This document shows positions 14,507-24,605 of a stretch of DNA of 33,952 nt, in pieces; within the stretch, counting starts at the first letter, position 1, and each line of letters opens with the position of its first letter. The notes under the pieces are model-generated. The model did no database searches. It saw only the letters and a list, made by a program, of their open reading frames with translations, and was not told where the DNA came from. Source of the stretch: Terriglobia bacterium (GTDB lineage Bacteria; Acidobacteriota; Terriglobia; Acidiferrales; UBA7541); contig JAIQGC010000004.1 in the NCBI GenBank assembly GCA_020072805.1, positions 1 to 33,952 of the forward strand, in the 5' to 3' direction. Made by a program: the position numbers and the translations under genes.

Positions 14507-14590
14507 TGTAGCCACCCTCTTCAGAGGGCTGGCTTTACTCCCCCTCGGTTTCGATCGAAAAGGCCCGCAGTCTAAAGACTGCGGCTACAG
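14507..14590. repeat. Inverted pair of CTRAAG-core palindromic elements
   Basis: Two hairpin units face each other between rimO and yacG. The left unit has the stem CCCTCT/AGAGGG (14515-14528) inside flanking GCCA/TGGC. The right unit has CCGCAGTC/GACTGCGG (14565-14584) around TAAA. Both units start at their outer end with TGTAGCC (14507-14513 on plus; its reverse complement GGCTACA at 14583-14589) and end inward with GGC(C)TTT. After orienting them the same way the two align along their length, while their stems differ in sequence but stay self-complementary. This is the pattern of a dispersed palindromic repeat family. Confidence 0.75.
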
Positions 14591-16044: not shown

Positions 16045-16319
16045 CCGGTAAGTTCGCGCTCCACGCCGCAAACATCTAGTCTAGCACGCACCGGGAAAAC
16101 GCCTGCGCAAGGCGCGCCGCAGCCCGCATTTTGCGTAGGGGCACGGCTTGCCGTGCCCGCTGCAGCACTGGTGGATTGCGCGTTCAGCCGCGCGCATTTT
16201 GGCAAGAATCCCTGCAAATCCCGCAAGCCTCTTCTGCCCGCGCAGTCTCGCGTGATTCCGGTGCGCATGCGAAATGTGCCGTCTCTCGAAGGAGCAAAAG
16301 CTAGATACGGAGCGAGGGC
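16045..16319. other. Intergenic stretch with a GGGCACGGC hairpin
   Basis: The 275 bp between rimO and the lipoprotein gene carries a perfect inverted repeat, GGGCACGGC at 16139-16147 and GCCGTGCCC at 16150-16158 with a two-base TT spacer, preceded by GTAG. Nothing else was recognised. The hairpin lacks a T tract on either side, so it does not look like a standard intrinsic terminator. Confidence 0.6.
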
Positions 16320-23093: not shown

Positions 23094-23170
23094 GGGCGAC
23101 TAGCTCAGTTGGTTAGAGCGCTCCCCTCACACGGGAGAGGTCAAAGGTTCAAGTCCTTTGTCGCCCACCA
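23094..23170 (+). tRNA. tRNA-Val (anticodon CAC)
   Basis: The 77-nt cloverleaf is complete. The acceptor stem is GGGCGAC paired with GTCGCCC. The D arm contains GCTCAGTTGGTTAGAGC. The anticodon stem CTCCC/GGGAG encloses the loop CTCACAC, giving anticodon CAC for GTG valine codons. The T arm is AAAGG-TTCAAGT-CCTTT. The CCA end is encoded (23168-23170). A short T-rich stretch follows (TCTTTTTATA). It is divergent from moxR and 45 bp upstream of the DUF4149 gene. Confidence 0.97.
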
Positions 23171-23695: not shown

Positions 23696-23743
23696 AATTG
23701 AACGCCGAAGTTACCTGCAATGTGATTCGGATCGTGGGGCAGG

Positions 23744-23877
23744 GCGGGCCTGAAAGGCCTGTGGGACAACCCGAAAGTCAATTCCTCAGCGGCTAAAGCC
23801 GCATTGAAAAGAAAACATTTATGTCGGAGCTAAAGTTCCGACCCCCTTTGAATACAAGAGCGGGCCTGAAGGCCCGC
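23744..23877. repeat. Tandem array of four CTRAAG-core palindromes
   Basis: Four hairpins lie in 134 bp between two convergent genes. (1) GGCC-TGAAA-GGCC at 23747-23759. (2) GCGGC-TAAA-GCCGC at 23789-23802. (3) GTCGGAGC-TAAA-GTTCCGAC at 23823-23842, with one G:T pair. (4) GCGGGCC-TGAA-GGCCCGC at 23860-23877. Each has CTAAAG or CTGAA(A)G at its centre while the stems differ. The last hairpin ends three bases from the stop codon of the minus-strand glycosylase gene, so the array could also help end transcription from both sides. The same core occurs in the two elements at 14507-14590. Confidence 0.75.
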
Positions 23878-23879
23878 CC

Positions 23880-24605
23880 CTATAGGGATTTGCGGGAGTT
23901 TCTGCGCTTGCGGCGTGGTTTCTTTGTGGGGGCGCGGCCGATCTTGCGGGCTTTGGCGGCGTTTTGGTGGACGGCGCGCCACATGTACCAGGAGGCCACG
24001 GTGCGGTAGGGGCGCCAGCGTTCGCCGAATTTGAGCAGATCCTTGGGCTTGGGGATGAAGCGTTTGCCGTAGGTGACGGCGTAGCCTTTTTGCACGCCGA
24101 GGTCGTGGATGGGGAGAACGTCGGGGCGGCCGAGGCGGAAGATGAGGAACATCTCGACGGTCCAGGCGCCGACGCCGCGGACGGAGATGAGGCGGGCGAC
24201 GAGCTGCTCGTCGGAGAGTTTTTCGGCTTCGGCGCGGGAGGGGACGACGCCCTGGAGAGTTTTTTTGGCGAGGTCTTTCATGGCCAGGACTTTGGCGCCG
24301 GAGAGGCCGGCTTTGCGGAGTGCGCGGGCGGGGATTTGCAGCATTTGATCGGGCGAAGGGGCGTGGCCGTTTTTGCCGAGGGTTTTCACTCGATTGAAAA
24401 TGGTTTCGGCGGCTTTGCCGGAGATGGACTGGTAGGCGATGGATTCGAGGAGGACTTCGTAGGGGGTGTCGGCGCCGGCGGTTTCGACTTCGATGCGGAA
24501 TTCCTGCGTTTCGGCGATGAGGCGGGCAAGGCGGGGGTCGCGGGAGGCGAGGGTGTCCATGGCGAGGCGGAGGTCGAAGGGCGGGAGGCGGAGTTCTTTG
24601 GGCAC
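23880..24605 (-). CDS. AlkA-type DNA-3-methyladenine glycosylase (HhH-GPD)
   Basis: The 241-residue protein belongs to the HhH-GPD superfamily and excises alkylated bases. The segment ESIAYQSISGKAAETIFNRV resembles the conserved AlkA-family region with QxLS/QQIS-like residues. The helix-hairpin-helix is LISVRGVGAWTVEMFLIFRL and the catalytic aspartate is in LPIHDLGVQKGY. No iron-sulfur cysteines follow, which separates it from MutY and Nth. The C-terminus is a lysine/arginine-rich tail (KPRRKRRNSRKSL), probably aiding DNA binding. The start is GTG at 24605 with a strong GGAGG five bases upstream. Its coding strand is poorer in G than in C, opposite to the mutY side of the window. Confidence 0.92.
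   Translation of the reverse strand: MPKELRLPPFDLRLAMDTLASRDPRLARLIAETQEFRIEVETAGADTPYEVLLESIAYQSISGKAAETIFNRVKTLGKNGHAPSPDQMLQIPARALRKAGLSGAKVLAMKDLAKKTLQGVVPSRAEAEKLSDEQLVARLISVRGVGAWTVEMFLIFRLGRPDVLPIHDLGVQKGYAVTYGKRFIPKPKDLLKFGERWRPYRTVASWYMWRAVHQNAAKARKIGRAPTKKPRRKRRNSRKSL

Follow-up and report, generated by a model that had tools for sequence, protein, structure and literature searches.

Among the closest described systems is the Marinomonas REPtron Mb (Group 3 TnpAREP/REP). According to the accessible sections of that study, positions 1, 2 and 4 of the TTTA loop recognized by TnpAREP (T12-T13-N14-A15) must be T, T and A, position 3 accepts any base, stem swaps have a moderate effect and stem mismatches are harmful (PMC8266576). 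The hairpins described here resemble this system in their GTAG foot, short perfect stem and T-T-x-A loop. They differ from it, as far as those sections go, in a third loop position that is T or C, in stems of mostly 6-8 bp instead of 5, in a loop that is common to several REP families and to RAYTs across the deepest split of the RAYT tree, and in the additional occurrence of GTGG feet or no clear foot. The GTAG REPs, REPtrons and TIRYT genes of Acidobacteria are likewise GTAG-tagged palindromes tied to RAYT-like genes, and such genes have been noted in Koribacter and other Acidobacteria; unlike the present work, the accessible text of that paper reports neither a common CTRAAG loop nor insertion into REP tips for Acidobacteria (PMC3733652). 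The class 3 TnpA-Y1 repeats of Solibacter are also high-copy structured repeats tied to Y1 genes of Acidobacteria, but are given a CnGA foot and atypical structures, in contrast to the CTRAAG hairpins found here (PMC6006769, accessible part).

The second component of our locus is a gene-less element of ~118 bp, which we call B. SMR-A of Haloquadratum walsbyi resembles it in being ~110 bp long, with prominent inverted ends, no transposase and a high copy number. In the sections of PMC3119063 available, SMR-A inserts in palindromes of IS605-type elements, whereas B sits in RAYT REPs; SMR-A is haloarchaeal and is reported to make no target duplication, whereas B carries a RAYT doublet and has a duplicated tip, so that the absence of target duplication does not apply to it. 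REPs are the preferred target of ISRm22, ISPsy8, IS1397 and ISPpu9/10, as they are of B; ISRm22 makes 6-bp direct repeats and ISPsy8 enters a predicted hairpin at its symmetry axis (PMC1525189, accessible text). These insertion sequences are autonomous, whereas B is gene-less, 118 bp long and from another phylum. Nothing on REPs was found in the accessible part of a MITE review (PMC10969869), and a literature search mostly outside subscription journals returned no paper on CTRAAG hairpins in Acidobacteria. Each kind of element is known; as a variant, their nesting at the loop in Acidobacteriota seems to be new.

The window, i.e. the whole stretch of DNA analysed, comprises 33,952 nucleotides of contig JAIQGC010000004.1 of a Terriglobia bacterium (assembly GCA_020072805.1, 3.98 Mb; G000). 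A preliminary description had pointed out six hairpins with CTRAAG-type tips at two loci. Their positions were correct, and five are strict C-TRAA-G hairpins with a stem score of at least 5 (Table 1); 200 dinucleotide shuffles gave 0.33 on average and never more than 4. The sixth, around 23751, has a 5-nt loop (TGAAA) and a weaker stem, with a score of 5.6 over 7 positions; a junction, at which the REP left half with CTGAAA abuts B's left inverted end, is the better reading of it. The four hairpins at 23744-23877 had been described as a tandem between convergent genes. The genes are convergent, but the hairpins form one nested composite rather than four independent copies. The hairpin at 23860-23877 touches the stop codon of the convergent HhH-GPD gene, just as had been observed. 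At the other locus, the two REPs form an inverted pair with outward-pointing GTAG feet, a REPIN-like form; a REPIN consists of two inverted REPs making one mobile unit. The REP at 14508-14533 is like family A (see below), a stem variant that is absent from the genome matches of that family. At Rfam gathering thresholds, the whole window yielded a tRNA and nothing else; a tRNA-Val (CAC) gene lies at 23094-23170, upstream of the composite.

Table 1. Hairpins of the window and proposed parts of the composite (positions are those of the window; parts of B and of its host REP were assigned from sequence)
Feature	Position	Strand	Details
REP	14508-14533	+	GTAG foot + CCACCCTC-TTCA-GAGGGCTGG; GTAG and TTCA both on + strand
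Hairpin of the REP at 14508-14533	near 14520	-	AGCCCTC-TGAA-GAGGGTGG
REP, family A	14562-14588	-	GTAG-CCGCAGTC-TTTA-GACTGCGG; 1 mismatch to the family pattern
Hairpin	14565-14584		CCGCAGTC-TAAA-GACTGCGG; stem score at least 5
REP left half with left tip copy	23742-23755		GGGCGGGC + CTGAAA (23750-23755); by comparison with other copies
B, left terminal inverted repeat	23756-23770	+	GGCCTGTGGGACAAC; consensus AGNCTGTGTGGCAAC
First hairpin of the RAYT-type doublet of B	23784-23802	+	CCTCAGCGG-CTAAAG-CCGC
Hairpin	around 23794		GCGGC-TAAA-GCCGC; stem score at least 5
Second hairpin of the doublet	23823-23842	+	GTCGGAGC-TAAA-GTTCCGAC; one G-T pair in stem
B, right part	23843-23865		Right inverted repeat missing (comparison with other copies)
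Hairpin	23860-23877		GCGGGCC-TGAA-GGCCCGC; stem score at least 5
Right tip copy with REP right half	23866-23884		CTGAAG (23866-23871) + GCCCGCCCCTATA

We searched the source genome for the REP patterns. Family A, GCCCGC(CC)TCTRAAGA(GG)GCGGCTACAGA, was found at 58 places with up to 2 mismatches and a second REP family, GCCGGGCTRAAGCCCGGCNTCTAC, at 40 places with up to 3; the reversed patterns gave 0 in both cases. This was the check named in the preliminary description for hairpins in chance numbers, and chance is excluded because the motif is multicopy. On the opposite strand, both families read GTAG - stem - TTYA - stem. The suggestion that the stems differ yet stay paired was borne out mainly between families and between genomes, but inside each REP family most copies have one stem. 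The remaining family A copies include compensated CTCTC, CGGTC and CAGTC arm variants, and the compensated stems of the second family include GCCGGAC/GTCCGGC, GCCGGCC/GGCCGGC and GCCAGGC/GCCTGGC.

The tip is not confined to these families. In a sample of the source genome (perfect stems of at least 7 bp, 4-nt loop), the top loops among 55 hairpins, 3 of which were runs of N, were TGAA (10), CAAG (7) and TAAA (6). By the same definition, 931,398 bases sampled across 21 genomes of this class gave 169 perfect tetraloop hairpins, of which 42 had TGAA (29) or TAAA (13), followed by CAAG (11); 28 different 7-nt arms occurred among the 42. This class sample is partly non-random, containing an own-genome stretch (C140) and several relatives' contigs picked from earlier hits, and this selection raises the background in the Y1-locus test and the CTRAAG-site hairpin test below. 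Given the excess over shuffles, the class loop counts and the 28 arms, the combination of a fixed tip with variable stems is genuine and extends across the class. At a score of at least 7, we counted TGAA 33, TAAA 15, TCAA 6 and TTAA 0, with control loops AAAA 9 and CGAA 4; TCAA was therefore no more frequent than the controls. The window also holds a perfect hairpin with another loop at 16139-16158, GGGCACGG-CTTG-CCGTGCCC; CTTG/CAAG is the third commonest tetraloop in the class sample (11/169), and hairpins with this loop are possibly another REP family.

The foot was scored in 67 TRAA hairpins with a score of at least 6 in the sampled sequence. It lay on the TTYA strand (CTAC or CCAC 3' of the TRAA hairpin) in 26 and on the other side (GTAG or GTGG 5') in 2; the motifs were CTAC 20, CCAC 7 (one hairpin has both), GTAG 0 and GTGG 2, and in 39 hairpins the GTRG foot was missing from both strands of the region scanned. 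As in REPs, a foot that is present is tied to the TTYA strand. Families A and R1 carry a GTAG/GTGG foot; the first hairpin of the doublet of B is without one. Several REP families with GTAG/GTGG feet exist here that have the loop alone in common. Three features of GTAG-type REPs were found, namely a multicopy palindrome, GTAG or GTGG 5' of the hairpin on one strand and an adjoining RAYT gene. The CTRAAG hairpins are REP elements: they are multicopy, have a fixed loop, paired but differing stems and strand-locked feet, and include RAYT-adjacent copies.

The search for a RAYT-like transposase, proposed in the preliminary description, was successful. The source genome has three Y1 transposase matches, two of which are RAYT-like genes. 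RAYT1 (L004) scored 104.9 bits with NCBIfam NF047646 (cut-off 80) and matched the solved E. coli TnpArep (PDB 4ER8) with an E value of 2.3e-6. It lies (C103, 92878) between exact CTRAAG REP copies of the second family (C103:92663-92686 and 93336-93359), with a variant third hairpin between the gene and the first flanking copy. Its relatives L141 (Candidatus Acidiferrum typicum, 54% identity) and L142 (49% identity) adjoin GTAG...TTYA hairpins with other stems, and no such hairpin was found close to the other two Acidobacteria matches of the RAYT1 relative scan, L143 and L144. In further genomes, TRAA hairpins lie next to the RAYT/IS200-type genes L264, L272, L275, L276, L283 and L284. The second own-genome RAYT-like gene, L005 (C117, 893-1332; 76.5 bits, just below the NF047646 cut-off), is flanked by GTGGCACAG hairpins that have GTGG and, instead of TTYA, loops of the TTCY or RGAA type. 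One of these hairpins lies within the reading frame. TTYA loops are therefore not universal. At L284 (G083), an IS200-type gene, the flanking hairpins read CCCAGGCG-TRAA-CGCCTGGG, with TRAA kept and the closing pair reversed. The strongest Y1 match of the genome, the IS200-like L003 (G000:C114:238-597, 137.7 bits), lies on a 5.4-kb contig.

Of the 53 Y1 matches, 30 were entered in a count of neighbouring hairpins. A TRAA hairpin lay within 400 bp at 8 of the 30 loci, compared with 5.0% of random placements (binomial p 8e-5), and was absent within this distance at the other 22; one of the 8, L003, probably has its hairpin by chance. A motif filter yielded protein for 17 of 36 loci, and the RAYT tree was built from these 17 (L141, L264, L284 and others lie outside it). 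Its deepest split (support 100/99) divides the six TTYA-flanked rows, with L004, L142 and L283 among 7 rows on one side and L272, L275 and L276 grouped (87/93) on the other. The proposal that a RAYT reads a constant loop while the stems covary has good support, and some RAYTs elsewhere adjoin CTRAAG hairpins with other stems. We conclude that the hairpins are probably recognized by a single-strand transposase through the four-letter loop; recognition of TTYA is inferred from one studied system, that of Marinomonas (PMC8266576, accessible sections).

The composite at 23742-23884 was compared with related copies. A 161-base query returned 24 further places in the genome, of which 23 were full or partial copies (79-91% identity) and one was a short match to the last hairpin only; among the 23, L047-L049 have other ends. 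In the usual layout, a left REP half with CTRAAG is followed by B of ~118 bp with AGNCTGTGTGGCAAC ends and by CTRAAG with the right REP half. B typically measures 116-119 bp, has 15-bp terminal inverted repeats and contains no gene, and thus has the form of a MITE. In the window copy, GAGCGGGC (23858-23865) occupies the place of B's right inverted repeat and pairs with the right REP half. The comparison shows the composite to be a nest, in which a REP is split at its CTRAAG tip by a ~118-bp inverted-end element carrying a RAYT-type hairpin doublet.

B-like matches were obtained in 64 of 121 genomes (about six candidates scored per genome), and 8 of 89 genomes of the family contained exact matches to AAGAG plus the end. 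In other genera, B sits in differently stemmed REPs, CACAGG/CCTGTG in G063 and GGCATGG/CCATGCC in G083 and G091, and its tip duplications mostly match. A second subfamily, B3 (129 bp), has the ends of B and no doublet and is found in G063 at sites like those of B; when 299 genomes of the class were searched with it, matches occurred in G063 and G046 only (best two candidates per genome). Longer copies of B (L214, L215, L218, L223, L227 and L238) have extra palindromes inside B-hairpin loops; in L214, L215, L218 and L223 these inserts are mostly of the TCCCGAC...GTCGGGACGC type and lie in CTRAAG loops of B hairpins, which makes a third nesting layer. In L238 and L311, one tip is common to two elements.

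In G000, 16 of the 17 copies with both ends have one orientation relative to the tip, as if derived from one founder. This would be expected if B were an enlarged REP copied whole by a RAYT, with the flanking CTRAAG pairs belonging to one long imperfect palindrome. However, the two flanking CTRAAG are direct repeats and not inverted ones, and in L040, where the REP is reversed, both read CTTCAG. Moreover, B lies elsewhere in unrelated stems (GCCGGG, CACAGG, GGCATGG) with mostly matching duplications, and B3 occupies the same kind of site with the same ends and no doublet. We consider such an origin of B unlikely.

The doublet inside B consists of CTCAGSGG-CTRAAG-CCS and a TRAA hairpin with an 8-bp stem, at near-fixed spacing; the distance is 21 nt in 45 of the 80 distinct doublets. 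Stems were analysed in the 45 of these 80 that are gap-free, in register and 61 nt long. For the second hairpin there were 13 forms, and 99.0% of cells were paired, where the best of 500 shuffles reached 84.6%; double changes were seen in 6 of its 8 pairs. The first hairpin had 9 forms with 97.2% paired (1 of 500 shuffles as high). Since the doublets were selected for paired stems, these percentages are inflated, and the informative result is the number of stems at a fixed place. In a sliding control, hairpin 1 was 10.6-46.1% paired over the full run and hairpin 2 was 25.0-36.9% paired at offsets of -3 to +2. Doublets of the type found in B flank the RAYT genes L272, L275 and L276 (genomes G035, G068 and G136), and neither placed own-genome RAYT belongs to this clade of the tree. 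The host REP at 23742-23884 is of the RAYT1 type, and the doublet of B is a two-hairpin REP that belongs to another RAYT clade.

Flank duplications were scored for 68 elements (69 rows, as L304 has two possible right ends); the window copy, with tips CTGAAA/CTGAAG, lacks the right end and is outside this set. Identical 6-bp flanks were found in 41 elements, one mismatch in 14, identical 7-bp flanks in 3 and neither in 10. The tip duplication was perfect in 44 of the 68, in a set that came partly from a pattern requiring AAGAG at one end and is thus enriched for one duplication side by design; shifted registers gave just 0 or 1 identical pairs. The 17 both-ended G000 copies, which were found by similarity, had 8 perfect duplications, 8 with one mismatch and 1 with two, and at the other G000 similarity places one end was unrecognized or of another type. 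The 7-bp duplications were CTTCAAG, CTTTCAG and CTGGAAG, two of them stem-flanked, i.e. at 5-nt tips. The duplication of B reads CTRAAG, and the outer C/G may equally be end bases of B itself, leaving the 4-nt loop; the true length is ambiguous from sequence within 4-6 bp, with 5 nt possible in three copies.

Perfect-duplication sites lay in a hairpin with a stem of at least 4 in 30 of 44 cases, compared with 62 of 794 sampled CTRAAG sites (odds ratio 25). In G063 alone, the numbers were 17 of 24 duplication sites and 4 of 37 background sites. No flanking stem of 4 was present at 14 of the 44 perfect sites, so sequence alone may sometimes suffice for insertion of B. When flanks were permuted within genomes, the number of stems was 34.8 on average with a maximum of 41, compared with 41 observed; the permuted count comes this close to the observed one because copies within one genome have REP stems in common.

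B has a RAYT-type doublet and targets RAYT REPs, and an autonomous element with exactly its ends was not found, as would be expected if the RAYT/HUH machinery itself moved B in place of a double-strand transposase. Against this stand the perfect target duplications of the 44 copies, the subfamily B3 without doublet and the DDE transposase of the sister-ended element described in the next paragraph. Target duplications are not known from Y1 HUH transposition. We regard movement of B by a RAYT as very unlikely.

Short AGGCTGCNGAAAA-ended elements, several of them with a doublet, were observed at L047-L049 (G000), L115, L120, L128, L189 and L209. By their ends, they form a sister family of B. Among the 19 DDE_Tnp_1 loci examined, L247 (G136:C98, 1331-2615) has sister ends: it is an insertion sequence of 1285 bp with AGGCTGCGGAAAAA ends on both sides and a gene of 362 aa, whose product scored 238.1 bits with the IS5-family model NF033581 (cut-off 140) and 208.7 with the IS1182 model (cut-off 270). 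On the left, L247 is preceded by GGCACGGCTGAAG, which is the arm plus CTGAAG tip of a doublet hairpin; on the right, the contig ends after GT. At 12 sister-ended places, with one extra base per end allowed, the 4-bp flanks were identical in 5 (CTAA in L047, CTAG in L115, TAAA in L128, TTTA in L189 and TAAA in L209), differed in 6 and were not judgeable in L247. The duplicated TAAA of L209 is the loop of a doublet-type hairpin, CAGCGG-C-TAAA-G-CCGCT, and sister copies also occur at CTAA or CTAG sites outside CTRAAG tips. IS5 elements have a 4-bp YTAR-like target habit.

Neither the loci compared, nor the DDE_Tnp_1 loci, nor the B3 scan of the 299 class genomes (best two candidates per genome) yielded an autonomous copy with the ends of B itself. 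TIR pairs more than 1 kb apart (L034, L188 and L231) were considered as autonomous B and rejected, as the long reading frames that they enclose resemble host genes by eye. L247 is an insertion sequence of the IS5/IS1182 type (NF033581, NF033551); its sister ends, of which the left one lies at the tip of a CTGAAG hairpin, hint at the mover of B. B differs from it in having other ends (AGNCTGTGTGGCAAC) and no gene, and what links the two is only that their ends and their target are alike. Presumably, a transposase of the IS5/IS1182 type, such as that of L247, moves B in trans.

We also considered whether the hairpins could act as transcription terminators or RNA stability elements at gene ends, in which case a stable tetraloop would explain the fixed loop. 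They are intergenic, the composite lies between a DUF4149 gene (+) and the HhH-GPD gene (-), whose stop one of its hairpins touches, and 14508-14588 directly follows the stop of a radical-SAM gene. However, neither element contains a terminator-like U-run, and a strand-locked foot and nearness to some RAYT genes would be unexpected. The orthologous sites also speak against this role. The HhH-GPD gene is present in 35 of 36 genomes of the genus, with the DUF4149 neighbour in 24 of the 30 loci examined. The doublet occurs in the gap of these 24 loci in G000 only; the composite is missing from all 23 other genus loci having both flanking genes. L336 and L354 have one or two other TRAA hairpins, and in L333, L334, L350 and L358 the matched ends are separated by 11-20 bp that contain no hairpin. 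At the remaining 6 HhH-GPD loci, the 330 nt that follow the gene are free of TRAA hairpins. The absence of the composite from those 23 loci makes it unlikely that it acts as a site-conserved terminator or regulator, and the comparison argues for mobile DNA over site-conserved regulatory DNA. Incidental effects of the hairpins on transcripts are possible; as an explanation of the hairpins, a function at gene ends is very unlikely.

Taken together, our data are best explained by REPs spread by RAYTs, one of which, at 23742-23884, was entered at its tip by B, presumably moved in trans by an IS5/IS1182-type transposase; we put the probability of this reading at about 0.82. A RAYT, an HUH single-strand nuclease, would bind the folded strand, read the foot and the T-T-x-A loop but chiefly the pairedness of the stem, and spread the element. 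A fixed loop with freely compensating stems would follow because the RAYT reads loop and pairedness and not stem sequence. B inserted at the CTRAAG tip of a RAYT1-type REP and duplicated the tip, and the transposase moving it in trans would be of the kind encoded by its sister element L247.

More tentatively, B and its sisters may target the DNA hairpin itself, which we regard as possible rather than probable. An IS5/IS1182-type transposase would cut an extruded hairpin, present as a cruciform or as a folded single strand, at the two bases of its loop and duplicate just the loop, giving 4 nt at tetraloops and 5 nt at pentaloops; CTRAAG would be seen since the closing C-G pair is regenerated. 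Such self-made targets would nest: every element carries a pair of new hairpins that end in this tip, so a stepwise nesting of REP, B, doublet and loop palindromes across Acidobacteriota would be accounted for.

The proposed origin would explain a class of palindromes that is common in these Acidobacteriota genomes and is named in no paper that we searched. The T-T-x-A loop rule, which was measured for a single RAYT of Marinomonas, would also come to apply in a distant phylum and to several REP families there, and the extended rule would predict which RAYT is paired with which repeat. For a possible hairpin-tip-targeted miniature transposon, the copies of B supply natural insertion data, with exact duplications at dozens of sites, two subfamilies and a transposase-bearing sister family, and duplication length may track loop length. 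With such data, the question of whether sequence or structure is targeted becomes directly testable.
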